A program made the translations under genes and the position numbers. From Maribacter aquivivus (lineage in GTDB: Bacteria; Bacteroidota; Bacteroidia; Flavobacteriales; Flavobacteriaceae): DNA of 64,000 bases. The stretch spans positions 406,471 through 470,470 of the forward strand of contig NZ_FQZX01000003.1 of assembly GCF_900142175.1 (NCBI RefSeq). The letters are read 5' to 3'. Below the pieces are notes generated by a model that did no database searches, had not been told where the DNA came from, and saw nothing but the letters and a program-made list of their open reading frames with translations. This document shows positions 28,137 to 56,491 of this stretch, piece after piece (the stretch's first letter is position 1; each line of letters begins with the position of its first letter).

Positions 28137-30524
28137 TTATTCATTATCCAATATTTGCTGAAGGGCAACCATGTCAGATACATAAACCTGTCTTGCTTTA
28201 CTACCTTCAAACGGACCTACAATGCCTGCGGCTTCTAATTGATCAATAATTCTACCGGCTCTATTGTACCCTAGTTTCAATTTTCGTTGAATTAAAGAAG
28301 CAGAACCTTGTTGGGCAATTACGATAACTTCAGCAGCTTCGCGAAACTTTGCATCCCTGTCAGACACGTTATTATCAAGACTCGTGCCAGAATCTTCACC
28401 AACATACTCAGGTAATTCGTGCGCATCTGGGTAAGCACGCTGACTACCAATGAATTCCACAATTTTTGCTACCTCTGGGGTGTCAACAAATGCACATTGA
28501 ATACGGGTGACATCATTACCTTGTGTAAATAACATATCTCCTCTACCAATTAATTGATCTGCACCTGCGGTATCTAAAATAGTTCTTGAATCTATTTTAG
28601 AAGTTACTCTAAACGCTAACCTCGCAGGGAAGTTGGCTTTGATGATACCTGTAATAACGTTTACAGAAGGTCTTTGCGTTGCAATGATTAAATGTATACC
28701 AATTGCTCTTGCTAATTGAGCAAGTCTTGCTACGGGCGTTTCTACCTCTTTTCCGGCAGTCATGATCAAATCGGCAAACTCATCAATTACTAGTACAATG
28801 TATGGTAAGAATTTGTGTCCGTCGTTCGGATTCAGTTTTCTAGCCTTAAACTTAGTGTTGTATTCTTTTAAGTTACGAACCATCGCTAATTTTAATAGCT
28901 CGTATCTATTATCCATTTCAATACAAAGTGAATTCAAGGTGTGAATTACTTTTGTGTTATCTGTGATAATAGCTTCTTCAGAATCAGGAAGCTTAGCTAA
29001 GAAATGACGTTCAATTTTATTGTACAGCGTAAGTTCAACTTTCTTTGGATCTACCAAAATAAATTTCACCTCTGCCGGATGCTTTTTATATAATAATGAT
29101 GTAAGTACTGCATTTAAACCAACCGATTTACCTTGACCAGTTGCACCTGCCATTAAAAGGTGAGGCATTTTTGCTAAATCTACTACAAAAGTTTCGTTGC
29201 TAATGGTCTTACCGAAAGCAATTGGTAATTCCATTTCTGCCTTTTGAAATTTGCTAGAGGCAATTACAGAACGCATAGATACAATCGATGAATTCTTGTT
29301 AGGTACTTCTATACCAATAGTTCCTTTACCAGGAATAGGGGCAATGATACGTATGCCTAATGCTGCTAATGATAAGGCGATATCATCTTCAAGGTTTTTA
29401 ATCTTCGATATTCTTACACCTGCTTCTGGTACAATTTCGTATAATGTAACTGTCGGACCAATGGTTGCCTTAATTTGGGCAATTCCGATTTTATAATTTT
29501 TTAGAGTTTCAACAATTTTATTCTTGTTTTCCTCTAATTCTTCCTGGTTGATGGTAATGCCACCGGTAGCCCCATGAGCATCTAAAAGATCAAGTGTAGG
29601 GAATTTGTAGTTACCTAATTCTAGGGTAGGGTCGAACTCTCCAAAATCATCTACAAGTTTATTGGCAAGAATATCAATTTCTTCGGGTTCTTCAACAACC
29701 GACTCAACCTCCATTGCTAATGTTTCTTCTGGCTCAGGTTCTGGTATTGTAACTTCAAAATCGTTAGTTTTTTTCTCTTTTTCTAAATGAGGAATTTCTG
29801 CCTTATGGGTATAGGTGTCTAAAATAACTGGAACTTCTTCTTCTAATGAAGTGGTAAGAATATCTTCTTGCTCTTTTTGTTCTTTCTTTTTAGTTGCTTT
29901 CCGTTCTTGGTTGGCTTTAAATTCTGTAGAAATAGCTTCTTTTCTAGAATTAAAGAAAGATGAAATACCTTCAGGTGTAACTTCAAATAATCGAACTAGA
30001 ATAAATATGAGTCCGAATACCAATATAAGTAATACGCCAATTTTACCGGCGTAATCTTGTAAGAAATCATTCATTTCAAAACCAACCAATCCGCCTAACA
30101 GTGGGCTAGTGGTTGCAAAGAAACCTAATGCAATAGAAATCCAAATAATGAATAATAGACCCCAAATCCATTTTTTGAACAATGCTTTTAAAGGTAGGCC
30201 TAAAAAGAGGTAAATACCTGTAATACAGATTAAAAACGGAATAATTAGAGAAGCTATACCAAAGCCCCTATACATAAAAAAGTGGCTAATGCTTGCTCCG
30301 AATTTGTTCAGTAAATTTTTTGCAAGTTCATTACGATCTTTAAATTCAGACAATAGACTTTGGTCATCTTGCCAGTTAAAGTAAAATGAAATAAACGAAA
30401 AGAACAATGCAATACTAAAGAGCATCAATAAACTACCCAAAATGATTTTATTCTGTTTGGATAATTTAAACGGTGTTCGCTTTTTAGTAGGTTTTGGCTT
30501 TGATTTAGTTGCCTTTTTTGCCAT
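28137..30524 (-). CDS. ftsK: FtsK/SpoIIIE DNA translocase
   Basis: A 795-residue septum-located DNA pump needed for chromosome segregation. It has four N-terminal membrane helices (about 25-185), a charged linker (about 190-310), the FtsK alpha/beta motor with Walker A GATGQGKSVGLN (Lys466) and Walker B-type YIVLVIDEFADLI, ATQRPSVNVITG, and a C-terminal gamma winged helix (SLIQRKLKLGYNRAGRIIDQLEAAGI). The linker is short compared with E. coli FtsK. It is the first gene of the ftsK-lolA-lptF/G-ribB operon. Confidence 0.96.
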   Translation of the reverse strand: MAKKATKSKPKPTKKRTPFKLSKQNKIILGSLLMLFSIALFFSFISFYFNWQDDQSLLSEFKDRNELAKNLLNKFGASISHFFMYRGFGIASLIIPFLICITGIYLFLGLPLKALFKKWIWGLLFIIWISIALGFFATTSPLLGGLVGFEMNDFLQDYAGKIGVLLILVFGLIFILVRLFEVTPEGISSFFNSRKEAISTEFKANQERKATKKKEQKEQEDILTTSLEEEVPVILDTYTHKAEIPHLEKEKKTNDFEVTIPEPEPEETLAMEVESVVEEPEEIDILANKLVDDFGEFDPTLELGNYKFPTLDLLDAHGATGGITINQEELEENKNKIVETLKNYKIGIAQIKATIGPTVTLYEIVPEAGVRISKIKNLEDDIALSLAALGIRIIAPIPGKGTIGIEVPNKNSSIVSMRSVIASSKFQKAEMELPIAFGKTISNETFVVDLAKMPHLLMAGATGQGKSVGLNAVLTSLLYKKHPAEVKFILVDPKKVELTLYNKIERHFLAKLPDSEEAIITDNTKVIHTLNSLCIEMDNRYELLKLAMVRNLKEYNTKFKARKLNPNDGHKFLPYIVLVIDEFADLIMTAGKEVETPVARLAQLARAIGIHLIIATQRPSVNVITGIIKANFPARLAFRVTSKIDSRTILDTAGADQLIGRGDMLFTQGNDVTRIQCAFVDTPEVAKIVEFIGSQRAYPDAHELPEYVGEDSGTSLDNNVSDRDAKFREAAEVIVIAQQGSASLIQRKLKLGYNRAGRIIDQLEAAGIVGPFEGSKARQVYVSDMVALQQILDNE

Positions 30525-49688: not shown

Positions 49689-50429
49689 ATGACGAAACAT
49701 TTTATTGATATTAATTGTGATGTAGGGGAAGGTGTTGGTAATGAAGAAGCGTTATTTCCGCTTATCAGTTCTTGTAATATTGCTTGTGGTGGTCATGCAG
49801 GTTCTAAAAAGAGTATAGTATTCTGTTTAGAGTTGGCAAAGAAGTGTAATGTAAAGATAGGTGCGCACCCATCATATCCTGATAGAGAAAATTTTGGTCG
49901 TGTTTCTATGAATATATCTAGCGATGCATTGATCCAAAGTATAAAAGAACAATTGCAATTATTCATGTCTTTATGTAATCAGATAGATGTTCAATTACAT
50001 CATATTAAACCTCACGGGGCACTTTATAATGATATCGCTAAAGACGAACTTGTAGCGAAAATGTTTTTAACTGGTATAGAAGAATTCAAAAAAGACGTAG
50101 TGTTATATGTTCCATATGGTAGCGTCATTCAAAAATTGGCATTAGAAAATGGATTTAAAGTTCTAGTTGAAGCCTTCGCTGATAGAAATTACAATACTGA
50201 TTTAAGTTTGGTTTCTAGAAAAGAGAGCAATGCCCTAATAACTGATGGTAAAGAGGTGTTGAATCATCTATTAACAATGTATAAAGAAAATGAGGTAAAA
50301 ACGGTGAGTGGAGATAAAATCCCTATTATCGCAAATACCTATTGTATTCATGGCGATACACCTTCGGCATTGCAAATTTTGGCGTATCTTTCAAATGAAT
50401 TACCTCATCATAATCTACTCATAAAATAG
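49689..50429 (+). CDS. pxpA: 5-oxoprolinase subunit A (LamB/YcsF family)
   Basis: A 246-residue cytoplasmic subunit of the prokaryotic ATP-dependent 5-oxoprolinase, which opens 5-oxoproline to glutamate. The family signature is clear: DINCDVGEGVGNEEALFPLISSCNIACGGHAGS, then GAHPSYPDRENFGR, HHIKPHGALYND, EAFADRNYN and CIHGDTPSA. The gene starts at the base after the transporter stop, and its own stop overlaps the pxpB start by one base. Confidence 0.95.
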   Translation: MTKHFIDINCDVGEGVGNEEALFPLISSCNIACGGHAGSKKSIVFCLELAKKCNVKIGAHPSYPDRENFGRVSMNISSDALIQSIKEQLQLFMSLCNQIDVQLHHIKPHGALYNDIAKDELVAKMFLTGIEEFKKDVVLYVPYGSVIQKLALENGFKVLVEAFADRNYNTDLSLVSRKESNALITDGKEVLNHLLTMYKENEVKTVSGDKIPIIANTYCIHGDTPSALQILAYLSNELPHHNLLIK

Positions 50430-51166
50430 TGAATTCCCCTAAAATACATATCAAACCATTTGGCGTACATTCTGTTTTAATTGAATGGCCAAATGAGGTT
50501 AGTGAAATCATATTAGAAAAGATATTACATTTTGAACGGTTTTTAAACAAAGAAGTGTTTACGAATAAGGAGTGGGAGTTAGTACCTTCTTATAACTCTC
50601 TTTTGATAGTTAATAGGACAAAACAAATCGATTTTCAGAAATTATCTTCTGATATAAACAACTGGTATGAACAATTAAAAGAATCTCCAAAACCAGATAG
50701 GTACTTATGGCGATTACCAGTTTGTTATGATTTGGAATTCGGTTTAGACCTTGAAGAGGTCGCAAATCATTTTAATAAAACAAAAGAAGAAATTATAGCC
50801 TTGCATACTGGCGCTACGTATACAGTATTCGGTATTGGGTTTTTACCAGGCTTTATGTATTTAGGCGGTATCAATAAAGAGTTAGAGATGCCAAGAAAAG
50901 CTACACCTAGATCTAAAGTGGTTAAAGGTGCTGTTGGTATTGCAGGTAAACAAGCAGGAATCTATCCGCAAGAATCACCAGGAGGTTGGAATATCATTGG
51001 AAATTGTGCAGTGCCCATTTTTGACGCAACAAAAGAGAATCCATGTTTTGTAAGTGTTGGCGATAAAATTGAATTCTATCAGATATCTAGAGCAGAGCAT
51101 GACCTTCATATAATAGAAGCAGAAGTGGGTATTTATAAACCTGAAAAAATTAAGATAGATGCTTAA
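50429..51166 (+). CDS. pxpB: 5-oxoprolinase subunit B (KipI-like)
   Basis: A 245-residue homologue of allophanate hydrolase subunit 1/KipI, one of the three oxoprolinase subunits. Conserved segments are FGVHSVLIEW, TYTVFGIGFLPGFMYLGG, PRKATPRSKVVKGAVGIAGKQAGIYPQESPGGWNIIG and SVGDKIEFY. It begins with GTG at 50429, sharing a base with the pxpA stop, and overlaps pxpC by 8 bp. The KipI name comes from its reported inhibition of a sporulation kinase in B. subtilis, which does not apply here. Confidence 0.94.
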   Translation: MNSPKIHIKPFGVHSVLIEWPNEVSEIILEKILHFERFLNKEVFTNKEWELVPSYNSLLIVNRTKQIDFQKLSSDINNWYEQLKESPKPDRYLWRLPVCYDLEFGLDLEEVANHFNKTKEEIIALHTGATYTVFGIGFLPGFMYLGGINKELEMPRKATPRSKVVKGAVGIAGKQAGIYPQESPGGWNIIGNCAVPIFDATKENPCFVSVGDKIEFYQISRAEHDLHIIEAEVGIYKPEKIKIDA

Positions 51167-51998
51167 AGTTCTAAAAGCAGGTTTTTATACCACGGTGCAA
51201 GATGCAGGGAGATTCCATTATAGAAATAAAGGAGTACCAGTATCTGGGGTAATGGATGAAATGTCAGTTTTTAAAGTAAATTCTTTGTTAGAGAATAAAG
51301 AGTCTTCTGCCGTGTTAGAAATTACCATGACGGGACCAACCCTCATCTTTGAAAAAGAAACCTTTATGGCACTTGGTGGAGCCAAAATGTCTGCGACACT
51401 CAATAATTTGCCTATCCAAAATTATAAAGTCTATATGATAGAAAAAGGTGACATACTTTCTTTTGGTCGTTTAGAAAAAGGTTTTAGGTCTTACCTAGCT
51501 ATAAAGGGTGGCTTCACACCTAAAGAAATATTGGGTAGTAGATCTTATTATAAGCCTATTACCAAAGTCAATAGATTAACTGATAATGATGTTGTTCCTT
51601 TTTCGGTGGCAGAAGATTTTCAACCTAAAATATCAGAAATTAAAGTGGCATCATTTTTAGATGAAACTGTTCTAGAGGTAAACAAAGCGCCAGAATTTGA
51701 TATATTAAGCGATAAGCAGTTAGAAGAAATTTTCTCTAAAACATTTACCGTAGCTCATGAGAATAACAGAATGGCATATCAGTTAACAGAAACGATAACA
51801 CCACATACATACTCAATGCTAACCTCTGCAACTATACCTGGTACCGTACAATTAACACCTGCGGGTAAATTGATTGTGCTTATGAAAGACGGACAAACAA
51901 CTGGCGGATACTTAAGAGCTGTTCAATTAACAGATAAGGCAATATGCATTCTAGCTCAAAAAAAGGGCGGAGATCCTATTAGCTTTAAATTGGTGTAA
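51159..51998 (+). CDS. pxpC: 5-oxoprolinase subunit C (KipA-like)
   Basis: A 279-residue biotin-independent carboxyltransferase-fold subunit. The start VLKAGFYTTVQDAGRFHYRNKGVPVSGVMDE is the family hallmark; LAIKGGF, LGSRSYY, NNRMAYQLTE, TIPGTVQLTPAGKLIVLMKDGQTTGGY and LAQKKGGDPISF follow. The protein is a little shorter than many homologues but has all main blocks. It is the last gene of the transporter-pxpABC operon. No terminator is apparent before the ilv leader. Confidence 0.93.
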   Translation: MLKVLKAGFYTTVQDAGRFHYRNKGVPVSGVMDEMSVFKVNSLLENKESSAVLEITMTGPTLIFEKETFMALGGAKMSATLNNLPIQNYKVYMIEKGDILSFGRLEKGFRSYLAIKGGFTPKEILGSRSYYKPITKVNRLTDNDVVPFSVAEDFQPKISEIKVASFLDETVLEVNKAPEFDILSDKQLEEIFSKTFTVAHENNRMAYQLTETITPHTYSMLTSATIPGTVQLTPAGKLIVLMKDGQTTGGYLRAVQLTDKAICILAQKKGGDPISFKLV

Positions 51999-52018
51999 TT
52001 TGATACTTTTTTAACCGA

Positions 52019-52051
52019 TTTTGTTAAGGGGCTATTTATCACCTATATTTT
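52019..52051 (+). promoter_or_regulatory. Candidate promoter of the ilv operon
   Basis: TTTTG at 52019-52023 and TATATTTT at 52044-52051 fit the Bacteroidota -33/-7 layout with 20-bp spacing; the last base of the -7 differs from TAnnTTTG. It lies about 16 bp upstream of the leader-peptide ATG, so transcription would start just before or at the leader ORF. Confidence 0.4.
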
Positions 52052-52066
52052 CAGTACTATTGTAAT

Positions 52067-52123
52067 ATGAAATTATCAAACCTAAATAAAGAACTAGTCA
52101 TTGTCATTCCAATTCTGGGATGA
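52067..52123 (+). CDS. Branched-chain amino acid leader peptide
   Basis: An 18-codon ORF, MKLSNLNKELVIVIPILG. Residues 10-17 (LVIVIPIL) contain seven Leu, Val or Ile residues out of eight. It lies between a promoter-like element and a strong intrinsic terminator, 265 bp upstream of ilvD, the first gene of the Ile/Val operon. This is the expected layout of a ribosome-mediated attenuator in which slow decoding of branched-chain codons allows read-through. No Shine-Dalgarno is visible, as usual in this phylum. Confidence 0.8.
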   Translation: MKLSNLNKELVIVIPILG

Positions 52124-52157
52124 TATAGCTTTTCAATATGTGGAAAAACCTGTATCA
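52103..52157 (+). promoter_or_regulatory. Alternative pause and antiterminator helices of the ilv attenuator
   Basis: Helix 1:2 pairs 52103-52110 (GTCATTCC) with 52117-52124 (GGGATGAT), two G-U pairs, within the leader codons. Helix 2:3 pairs 52121-52128 (TGATATAG, including the leader stop) with 52150-52157 (CTGTATCA), one G-U pair. Helix 2:3 uses the 5' arm of the terminator and conflicts with helix 1:2. A ribosome stalled on the Leu/Val/Ile codons would block 1:2, allow 2:3 and prevent termination. Pairing was worked out by eye. Confidence 0.7.
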
Positions 52158-52181
52158 GATATATTTGATGCAGGTTTTTTT
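52144..52181 (+). terminator. ilv attenuator terminator
   Basis: A 14-bp stem, AAAAACCTGTATCA (52144-52157) with TGATGCAGGTTTTT (52166-52179), contains one G-U pair and has an 8-nt loop. It is followed by further T residues. It lies 20 nt after the leader stop and about 210 nt before ilvD; the stretch between has no other gene. Confidence 0.88.
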
Positions 52182-52388
52182 ATGTTTTATCTATAATTGT
52201 ACACTGTTTTTAAGTATTGAATATGGTATATAGTTGTTGTTTAAGTGTTTGGTATTCAATATTTTAGATTCATTTTTGATTAAATGAATTTGTATTGTCA
52301 ATTATTGTTAAAATTAGAAATTTTTATAAACTTTTATCTTTGGTTTAACAGTATTAAGAAATCAAGATAAGCATACGAGAATTATATT

Positions 52389-54065
52389 ATGGAATTGAAC
52401 AAACATAGTAAGAATGTAACCCAAGATCCAACACAACCGGCAGCACAAGCAATGCTTTATGCTATAGGTTTAACAGAAGAAGATTTAAAGAAACCATTAA
52501 TTGGTATTGGTAGCACAGGTTATGAGGGAAATCCTTGTAATATGCATTTAAATGATTTGGCTCAAGAGGTTAAAGTTGGTGTTAATGACAGTGGCTTAGT
52601 TGGTCTTGTGTTTAATACTATTGGTGTGAGTGATGGTATATCTATGGGTACTTATGGTATGCGTTACTCTTTGCCTTCTAGAGATATTATTGCTGATTCT
52701 ATGGAAACAGTAGTGCAAGCAATGAACTATGATGGTTTGGTTACTGTTGTTGGGTGCGATAAAAATATGCCAGGTGCACTTATGGCGATGATTCGTTTAA
52801 ATAGACCATCTGTTTTAGTGTATGGTGGTACAATTGCTTCGGGTTGTTTTAAGGATAAGACCTTAGATATCGTTTCTGCTTTTGAAGCATGGGGCGAGAA
52901 GGTTGCTGGTACAATGAATGAGGAAGATTACAAAGGTGTAATTCAGAATGCTTGCCCAGGTGCAGGTGCTTGTGGTGGTATGTATACTGCTAATACAATG
53001 GCATCTGCTATAGAAGCTTTGGGTATGGCAATGCCTTATAATTCTTCTAATCCTGCTATTGGAAAAGATAAGCAGTACGATGCTATAAACTCTGGTAAGG
53101 CTTTAAGAAACCTTTTAGAGAAAGATATTAAGCCAAGTGATATTATCACTCGTAAATCAATGGAGAATGCTATTCGTTTGCTAACCCTTTTGGGTGGGTC
53201 AACAAATGCGGTACTTCACTTTTTGGCAATCGCTAAAGCTGCCGATGTTGATTTTACGTTAGATGATTTTCAAAAAATTAGTGATACAACGCCATTCTTG
53301 GCAGATTTAAAGCCAAGTGGTAAATTTTTGATGGAAGATGTTCATCGTGTAGGTGGTGTACCTGCCGTTATGAAGTTTATGCTTGAAAACGGAATGCTAC
53401 ATGGAGATTGTCTTACCGTTACTGGTAAAACAATAGCTGAAAACTTAGCTGATGTACCTGGTTTATTGGAACATCAACAAGTAATAAAACCTTTGAGCAA
53501 TCCTATTAAGGCAACAGGTCACTTACGTATTCTTTACGGCAACCTAGCCACTGAAGGTGCTGTGGCTAAGATTACAGGTAAGGAAGGACTGTATTTCTCT
53601 GGTCCGGCTAAAGTATATAATGATGAGTTTCTTGCTAATGCCGGTATCGGTAGAGGTGAGGTGAAAAAAGGTGATGTTGTGGTTATACGTTACGAAGGTC
53701 CAAAAGGAGGACCCGGTATGCCAGAAATGTTAAAACCAACTGCAGCTATTATGGGAGCAGGTCTTGGTAAAGATGTTGCTTTGATTACAGATGGTCGTTT
53801 CTCAGGTGGTACACACGGTTTCGTAGTGGGTCACGTTTCTCCTGAAGCACAAGAGGGCGGAGCAATTGGTCTTCTAGAAAACGGAGATATTATTACGATA
53901 GATGCTGAAAAGAATGAAATTTCGGTTAATCTAACAGATGAGCAGTTATCAGAAAGAAAAAAGAATTGGAAACAGCCAGAATTAAAGGTGAAAAGAGGAA
54001 GTTTATACAAATATGCCCGTATGGTATCTTCTGCATCTAATGGTTGTGTTACCGATGAGTTTTAA
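52389..54065 (+). CDS. ilvD: Dihydroxy-acid dehydratase
   Basis: A 558-residue Fe-S dehydratase, third step of Ile/Val synthesis, converting dihydroxyacids to 2-oxoacids. Cluster cysteines lie in [18 protein letters not shown] and [42 protein letters not shown] and [20 protein letters not shown] are the catalytic-domain motifs. It opens the ilv operon behind a leader-peptide attenuator. Confidence 0.97.
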
Positions 54066-55912: not shown

Positions 55913-56491
55913 ATGAACGATACTAACATACAAGACATTCCAAAAATACACACGGAGATTACTCGTAAATCTGAAGAAATCGGATTTACGATGCCCTCAG
56001 ACTTGTACGTTGGTAGCTTTCTCAAAACCTTAATTACCTCTAAACCCAATGGTAGATTCTTAGAAATAGGAACTGGTATTGGTCTTAGCCTTTCTTGGAT
56101 GATAGAAGGAATGGATGCTGATTCTAAATTAATATCCGTTGATAATGACCCAGCGTTAATTTCAATTGCTTCTAGTTATTTTGGTGATGATGATAGGGTT
56201 GAGGTTATTTGCAAAGATGGTACTGATTGGATAAATGAATATTCAGGTGCTAAATTTGATTTGATTTTTGCAGATGCTTGGCCAGGTAAGTATAGTGAAA
56301 TTGATGAGGTTTTAGATTTACTTCAGGTTGGCGGATTTTACATTATCGATGATATGACAAAGCAACCTAATTGGCCAGAAGGTCATGAGGATAATGTGAT
56401 AGTTCTTACAGCGTATTTAGAACAACGTGAAGATTTACAATTGACCAAAATGAATTGGTCTACAGGCTTAATAATGGCCGTTAAGAAATAG
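55913..56491 (+). CDS. Class I SAM-dependent O-methyltransferase-like protein
   Basis: A 192-residue Rossmann methyltransferase. The SAM motif I is FLEIGTGIGLSLSWM, motif II is LISVDNDPALI, and FDLIFADAWPGKY plus GGFYIIDDMTKQPNW complete the fold in the style of the O-methyltransferase-3 group. It is inserted between ilvB (20-bp gap) and ilvN (61-bp gap) on the same strand, so it is transcribed with the pathway. Its substrate is unknown. No known Ile/Val step needs SAM. Confidence 0.82.
   Translation: MNDTNIQDIPKIHTEITRKSEEIGFTMPSDLYVGSFLKTLITSKPNGRFLEIGTGIGLSLSWMIEGMDADSKLISVDNDPALISIASSYFGDDDRVEVICKDGTDWINEYSGAKFDLIFADAWPGKYSEIDEVLDLLQVGGFYIIDDMTKQPNWPEGHEDNVIVLTAYLEQREDLQLTKMNWSTGLIMAVKK

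Follow-up and report, generated by a model that had tools for sequence, protein, structure and literature searches.

The leader region upstream of ilvD

The window, a 64,000-nucleotide stretch of Maribacter aquivivus DNA, carries a putative attenuator in front of an ilv operon on the + strand. NCBIfam profiles give the gene order downstream of it as ilvD-ilvB-(192-aa ORF)-ilvN-ilvC-ilvA, with ilvD (52389–54065, + strand; TIGR00110, above cut-off) as the first gene of the operon. The 192-aa ORF between ilvB and ilvN (55913–56491) matched no NCBIfam family at 1e-10; by eye it resembles a methyltransferase, which would be odd company within an ilv operon. Directly 5' of the attenuator region NCBIfam places pxpA-pxpB-pxpC (5-oxoprolinase; 49689–51998), with pxpC ending at 51998. 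A PxpC homologue is also present in 23 of the 29 loci, each about 3 kb long, that were taken from other genomes in the family-wide model search described below.

Between pxpC and ilvD lies an 18-codon leader ORF, MKLSNLNKELVIVIPILG (52067–52123, + strand; ATG at 52067–52069, stop codon TGA at 52121–52123), with equivalents in relatives. Codons 10–17 read L V I V I P I L (52094–52117), which confirms the seven Leu/Val/Ile residues in eight codons noticed in the first-pass annotation and shows that codons for the products of the operon cluster in this short ORF. The start that annotation gave to the whole element, 52019, falls in the promoter region, 5' of the leader ORF.

Three helices can be drawn on the + strand. 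Hairpin 1:2, a putative anti-antiterminator and possible pause hairpin (52102–52110 with 52117–52125), is formed by GTCATTCC (52103–52110) pairing with GGGATGAT (52117–52124), plus one further pair, 52102–52125. Segment 2 (52121–52128), the 5' arm of the predicted antiterminator, overlaps the stop codon; its sequence, TGATATAG, pairs with CTGTATCA in segment 3 (52150–52157) through 8 pairs, one of them G-U, with the stop codon included. Segment 3 is common to the antiterminator, where it pairs with segment 2, and to the predicted intrinsic terminator 3:4 (52144–52181), where it pairs with segment 4; the terminator, whose arms AAAAACCTGTATCA/TGATGCAGGTTTTT at 52144–52179 are followed by a T tract, sits between the leader ORF and the first gene. 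Direct reading bore out the positions first proposed for the leader ORF, the competing helix, the antiterminator and the terminator. The free fold of 52050–52190 has an energy of -39.9 kcal/mol (z -5.58), and 0 of 200 shuffles were as good.

Such an arrangement can arise by chance. A crude detector, which asks for a short ORF rich in Ile/Leu/Val with any terminator-like hairpin after it, picked out two units on the window's + strand (the ilv leader and another, with a weaker hairpin, at 28709) and none on the - strand, while 20 Markov sequences gave a mean of 1.4 units per 64-kb strand (0 to 4); the detector also misses L004, L007 and L009, which do carry the element. Because the pattern of ORF plus hairpin is common by chance in AT-rich DNA, the case rests on comparison and not on a single sequence.

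Conservation, covariation and the computed switch

Relatives were taken from an IlvD scan of the genome collection, in which the best 80 of 589 loci were used; two (L034 and L045) were dropped for lack of usable upstream sequence, and 78 relatives with upstream sequence were compared. By eye and with scripts, a leader and a terminator were recognised no further than about 450 nt from ilvD in 38 of the 78 (best 80 of 589), and a covariance model then found the unit in seven Tenacibaculum loci, about 1.15 kb upstream, before ilvE. The conservation in relatives that the first-pass annotation expected of a genuine attenuator was thus observed: the unit is carried by 45 of the 78 relatives (best 80 of 589), namely 35 aligned sequences, the 7 from Tenacibaculum and 3 (L044, L071 and L080) with divergent sequences and the same layout. 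No unit was recognisable by model and eye in 33 of the 78 (best 80 of 589), a set from which a very divergent unit could escape and which includes loci titled Eudoraea, Aquimarina, Dokdonia and Winogradskyella. A terminator remnant upstream of ilvD in L030 (2193–2316; 42.7 bits, no leader ORF) was not counted; it is apparently a decaying attenuator.

The covariance model, R1, was built from the 36 aligned units including that of the window, whose own matches are therefore by construction. It has one strong match in the own genome, at 94.6 bits, with the next at 41.7 bits and below; two of these weaker matches were inspected and lie among genes that by eye seem unrelated. We therefore rejected a dispersed repeat unrelated to ilv, which the first-pass annotation had named as an outcome fatal to its reading. 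Across the family, 61 of 397 genomes, the own genome included, had a match of at least 55.9 bits among the matches listed, a threshold that admits some terminator-only matches; the loci looked at were 29 from other genomes, the own locus and G093. At E <= 0.01 the model picks up 241 of 397 genomes, but this figure was set aside because R1 responds to ordinary terminators as well, and to the palindrome read from the opposite strand (up to 57.2 bits). In 28 of the 29 other-genome loci the unit stands directly upstream of ilvD; in L116 it lies about 1 kb upstream, with a leader identical to that of L078. A sample of the phylum gave matches at E <= 1e-6 in 5 of 296 genomes, all of the same family, and since the 25 phylum-sample matches listed are all from Flavobacteriaceae, they say little about the rest of the phylum.

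Covariation was analysed in an alignment of 36 sequences including the window, with L044, L071 and L080 excluded as too divergent. The counts, which ignore kinship of the sequences and are not tree-corrected, show hairpin 1:2 paired in 95.4% of cells with 4 of 9 pairs changed on both sides, and the terminator paired in 98.7% of cells with 7 of 13 pairs so changed. Taken jointly, these two helices and an enclosing helix 0:0' had 21 of 32 pairs changed on both sides, a number that 0 of 500 shuffles reached; none of the 500 reached the paired fraction, the compensatory pairs or cells, or the score of this three-helix structure, 4 of 500 reached its number of pair types, and slid versions paired in 39–48% of cells. 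The antiterminator, an alternative that is exclusive with the terminator, pairs in 97.9% of cells in the 36 sequences, compared with 14–56% when slid. Its covariation is weak: just 1 of 8 pairs changed on both sides, matched by 36 of 500 shuffles, while its paired fraction was reached by 52 of 500 and its score by 20 of 500. Shuffles reach these values often because segments 2 and 3 hardly vary. The compensatory changes anticipated for all three helices are thus present in 1:2 and in the terminator, with a single such pair in the antiterminator. In L007, segments 2, 3 and 4 have all changed at one matching position, and two outer antiterminator pairs are lost.

Helix 0:0' joins the early control codons to the stretch before the terminator, around 1:2, in many relatives. 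It is paired in 64.4% of cells, with 33 cells changed on both sides (a count reached by none of 500 shuffles), while its pairs changed on both sides and its pair types were reached by 87 and 85 of 500 shuffles, respectively; folding gives it a P of 0.00 in the window element, where it is absent. The alignment supports this fourth helix, which adds to the three originally described.

Leader length keeps one reading frame in 36 of 36 aligned rows, and the Ile/Leu/Val fraction is 0.66 in frame 0 as against 0.29 and 0.07 in the other frames. The conserved frame is an indirect sign that the leader ORF may be translated. The peptide outside the Ile/Leu/Val run differs widely among relatives. Counting codons back from segment 2, Ile/Leu/Val occupancy in relatives is 0.89, 0.86, 0.92, 1.00 and 0.92 at codons -9 to -5, then 0.03, 0.23, 0.10 and 0.03 at codons -4 to -1.

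The positions of these codons were compared with the folding of RNA ending before segment 4. With no ribosome, the 36 sequences had a mean P(1:2) of 0.83 and a mean P(2:3) of 0.11; masking by a ribosome through alignment column 57 raised the mean P(2:3) to 0.94, and to 0.98 in the window. When a stalled ribosome was walked along the leader, with masking assumed to extend 12 nt beyond the point where the A-site codon begins, P(2:3) was 0.96 at codons -9 to -5, 0.95 at -4, 0.52 at -3, 0.03 at -2 and 0.00 at -1; footprint offsets of 9 and 15 nt move the permissive edge by one codon. Additional Ile/Leu/Val codons at -12 and -11 (occupancy 0.69 and 0.78) go with P(2:3) of 0.73 and 0.82. Codon -4 is permissive by folding yet mostly Pro, and the CC of this Pro codon pairs within hairpin 1:2. 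In the window, predicted stalls at codons 10–15 free segment 2, a stall at codon 16 does so partly at most, and stalls from codon 17 onward do not. The control codons are thus placed, for the footprint size assumed, such that stalling frees the antiterminator arm and finishing masks it.

In full-length RNA at equilibrium the terminator prevails in all the sequences, and masking of segment 1 does not alter this (P(2:3) 0.00), so antitermination would have to be kinetic and depend on the relative timing of ribosome and polymerase. An exception to the ribosome-free behaviour is L070, in which the antiterminator forms without a ribosome (P(2:3) 0.89); ribosome-free P(2:3) reaches 0.47–0.50 in L025, L057 and L062. 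Default antitermination was also predicted in 3 of 14 units of a separate folding set (L071, 0.81; L080, 0.68; the own his leader, 0.83).

Promoter boxes, tandem units and his leaders

Immediately 5' of the leader ORF is a putative sigma-A -7 box, TACTATTG (P1; 52055–52062, + strand; 5 of 6 positions of the consensus TAnnTTTG), with a predicted transcription start at 52067, the A of the leader AUG. No TTG is found 17–23 nt from this box in the window. An alternative P1, with TTG at 52021–52023, a spacing of 20 nt and TATATTTT at 52044–52051 (52021–52051, + strand), would put about 11 nt of 5' UTR before the ORF; a similar box was seen by eye in L002 and L003. After repeats were removed from 73 leader regions, 66 distinct leaders remained, and a box matching at least 5 of 6 positions ends 3–6 nt before the leader start in 51 of them (shuffles: mean 5.5, max 10); the tandem Tenacibaculum units and L116 that are among the 66 (L049, L053, L059, L068, L077, L078 and L116) lack a box at 4–5 nt. 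In a set of 59 distinct single-unit leaders, which excludes the tandem Tenacibaculum units and L116, such a box ends 0–9 nt before the start codon in 56, and exactly 4 or 5 nt before it in 49 of the 59. A TTG lies 17–23 nt 5' of the box in 34 of the 56 (31 occurrences at 19–20 nt; shuffles: mean 8.8, max 17); the window leader is not among these 34.

In Flavobacterium johnsoniae, a distance of 4–5 nt between -7 box and transcription start is reported as common (PMC6847099), so the predicted start falls on the leader AUG. Judged by this spacing of the sigma-A box, the ORF is probably leaderless, its RNA starting at or next to the AUG. The remark in the first-pass annotation that initiation here lacks Shine-Dalgarno pairing is thereby sharpened: the predicted transcript begins at the AUG itself. 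In F. psychrophilum, just 5.5% of the mRNAs of the 890 genes whose starts were mapped are reported to be leaderless (PMC9723704), so the apparent leaderless use for attenuator ORFs would be selective.

A second candidate promoter, P2, with a perfect -7 box TATCTTTG (52335–52342, + strand; 6 of 6), lies 3' of the terminator and is conserved in relatives. Of 79 loci including the window (best 80 of 589), 58 have a perfect box no more than 110 nt from ilvD (shuffles: mean 6.0, max 12), namely 35 of 39 loci with a nearby attenuator and 23 of 40 without; in 45 of the 58 the box ends 46–50 nt before the ilvD start codon. A TGAATATG-like element lies 5' of the box in 35 of 39 loci with a nearby attenuator and 19 of 40 without. 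A consensus of the 39 attenuator-bearing loci including the window defines a conserved block upstream of P2 (52217–52330, + strand, limits approximate) that starts with TTGAATATGGTA at 52217–52228. In the window, 52217–52342 reads as TTGAATATGGTA, a TGATAATCA-like palindrome and TTGAATTTA, then the perfect sigma-A box; the first element of the block also occurs where no attenuator is near, in 19 of 40 such loci. The block is possibly an operator region for a regulator, and P2 could provide basal or separately regulated expression that does not pass through the attenuator. This second promoter box is new relative to the first-pass annotation, which had held a transcription start downstream of 52181 to speak against attenuation; a conserved box does lie there, in addition to the one before the leader.

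Several relatives carry attenuators in series. All 8 of 8 Tenacibaculum loci (among the best 80 of 589) have two, with differing terminators, followed by an ilvE homologue in seven loci and by ilvD in L068. Tandem units were found upstream of ilvE-ilvD or ilvD in L049, L053, L059, L064, L068, L069, L077 and L078, and in L138, L139, L140, L143 and L144. These loci, from Tenacibaculum and other Flavobacteriaceae, contain two or three units, and every unit has an Ile/Val/Leu leader and a terminator of its own. Among five ilvE loci of one genus, L138 and L139 have three units and L140 two, L141 has no unit and L142 none adjacent; L143 (two units) and L144 (three) were chosen because the model gave double matches. 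In these relatives, operons of one kind come naturally with one, two or three attenuators, as a graded series.

The hisG loci served as a specificity control. A His-rich leader (at least three His in ten residues) takes the place of Ile/Leu/Val in 17 of 17 hisG loci obtained from 21 genomes searched (L121–L137), two of which were folded. The own hisG leader, MKNRTTHHHFHIHA (L125; contig C2, near 118189), is followed by a terminator.

Proposed mechanism and known systems

We consider it highly probable that the conserved element acts by classical ribosome-mediated attenuation in response to branched-chain amino acids. The anatomy of the element, its conservation, the covariation in two of its three helices and the placement of its codons and promoter box are properties of the compared sequences, and the comparison upholds the ribosome-mediated attenuator upstream of ilvD that was first proposed. 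Read-through from P1 into ilvDBNCA would be set by the charging of branched-chain tRNAs. RNA polymerase would start at or next to the leader AUG, a position that points to leaderless translation without Shine-Dalgarno pairing. When Ile-, Val- or Leu-tRNA is short, a ribosome stalled on codons 10–15 would cover segment 1 and leave segment 2 free to capture segment 3 as it emerges, so that no terminator forms and transcription continues, as folding and codon placement suggest. When the amino acids are sufficient, the ribosome would reach the stop codon inside segment 2 and mask it, and the terminator would form. With no ribosome, hairpin 1:2 would sequester segment 2, again permitting termination. 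Stalling, kinetic antitermination and the amino-acid response are thus what the model predicts. P2, lying after the terminator, probably gives attenuation-independent expression.

A simpler account, in which the hairpin is a plain terminator of the upstream pxpABC genes next to a chance ORF and ilvD is transcribed from P2 alone, would fit the end of pxpC at 51998, the perfect conserved box downstream and the frequency of ORF-plus-terminator patterns by chance (mean 1.4 per 64-kb strand). It leaves aside, however, that the ORF, its Ile/Leu/Val run and frame, hairpin 1:2 and the antiterminator are conserved together with the terminator, that a promoter box is conserved immediately 5' of the ORF, and that L072 and L060 already have another terminator upstream of the P1-type box; we regard it as very improbable. 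Still less credible is a T-box, a riboswitch or an RNA-binding protein sensing through the same terminator. Elsewhere, terminators in front of amino-acid genes do serve such sensors, but Rfam, including its leader families and T-box, gave no gathering-score match in the window and weak matches within 51950–52450 that all fell far under the cut-offs, and the codon run and stop position would be left unexplained.

Attenuation could also be part of a wider role in which the leader RNA or peptide acts in trans. Termination would release a short RNA of about 115 nt, and the trpL leader peptide of Sinorhizobium meliloti has been reported to act in trans (PMC7298713). The variability of the peptide outside the Ile/Leu/Val run, and the sufficiency of stalling in cis to explain the run, make this unlikely. 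Extending the attenuation reading to the family, we lean, by a little, towards the view that Flavobacteriaceae place amino-acid attenuation on leaderless, Shine-Dalgarno-independent ORFs, behind a sigma-A promoter with its -7 box set so that RNA begins exactly at the AUG, which would synchronise transcription and translation from nucleotide 1, and that same-signal series in several lineages multiply termination and sharpen the response.

The trp, his and ilv attenuators of the E. coli type combine control codons with 1:2, 2:3 and 3:4 helices, and a ribosome that finishes at the stop codon blocks 2:3. The Maribacter element has the same helix set, control codons and stop placement. Leaders of the E. 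coli type have a 5' UTR and a Shine-Dalgarno site, whereas neither is evident in the Maribacter leader. A 2010 study by Lopatovskaya et al. is said to be a comparative one on attenuation. We found no paper joining transcription-translation coupling, leader peptide, attenuation and Bacteroidota, and the view that attenuators of this phylum are little studied experimentally seems fair as far as the literature examined goes. A search for tandem amino-acid attenuators returned just Salmonella mgtCBR and papers around it, a weak negative.

In F. psychrophilum, leader-peptide attenuation has been inferred upstream of amino-acid operons, and pheA and hisG are among the genes for which structured 5' elements are named (PMC9723704); these are from the same family as Maribacter, and 'ilv' is absent from the main text of that report. 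The Salmonella mgtCBR leader is described as having two translated short ORFs and tandem attenuators (PMC3641672), and so resembles the tandem ilv units of relatives and not the window element; its units answer different signals, whereas tandem ilv units repeat the same codon classes. The ilvBNC attenuator (IlvL) of Corynebacterium glutamicum, as reported, has a branched-chain leader peptide (MTIIRLVVVTARRLP), an RNA that starts one nucleotide away from the start codon of the leader, an anti-antiterminator/antiterminator/terminator set and further operon promoters (PMC11857589). Leader peptide, phylum, promoter type and first gene differ from those of the Maribacter element, and hairpin 1:2 of Maribacter lies within the control codons and does not shield the start codon. 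Bacteroidota lack Shine-Dalgarno initiation, and the element offers a precisely defined case in which ribosome control of transcription in this phylum can be tested. Set beside these systems, the principle of attenuation is classical; what seems to be new is the apparent start of translation at the first base of the RNA and the stacking of units.
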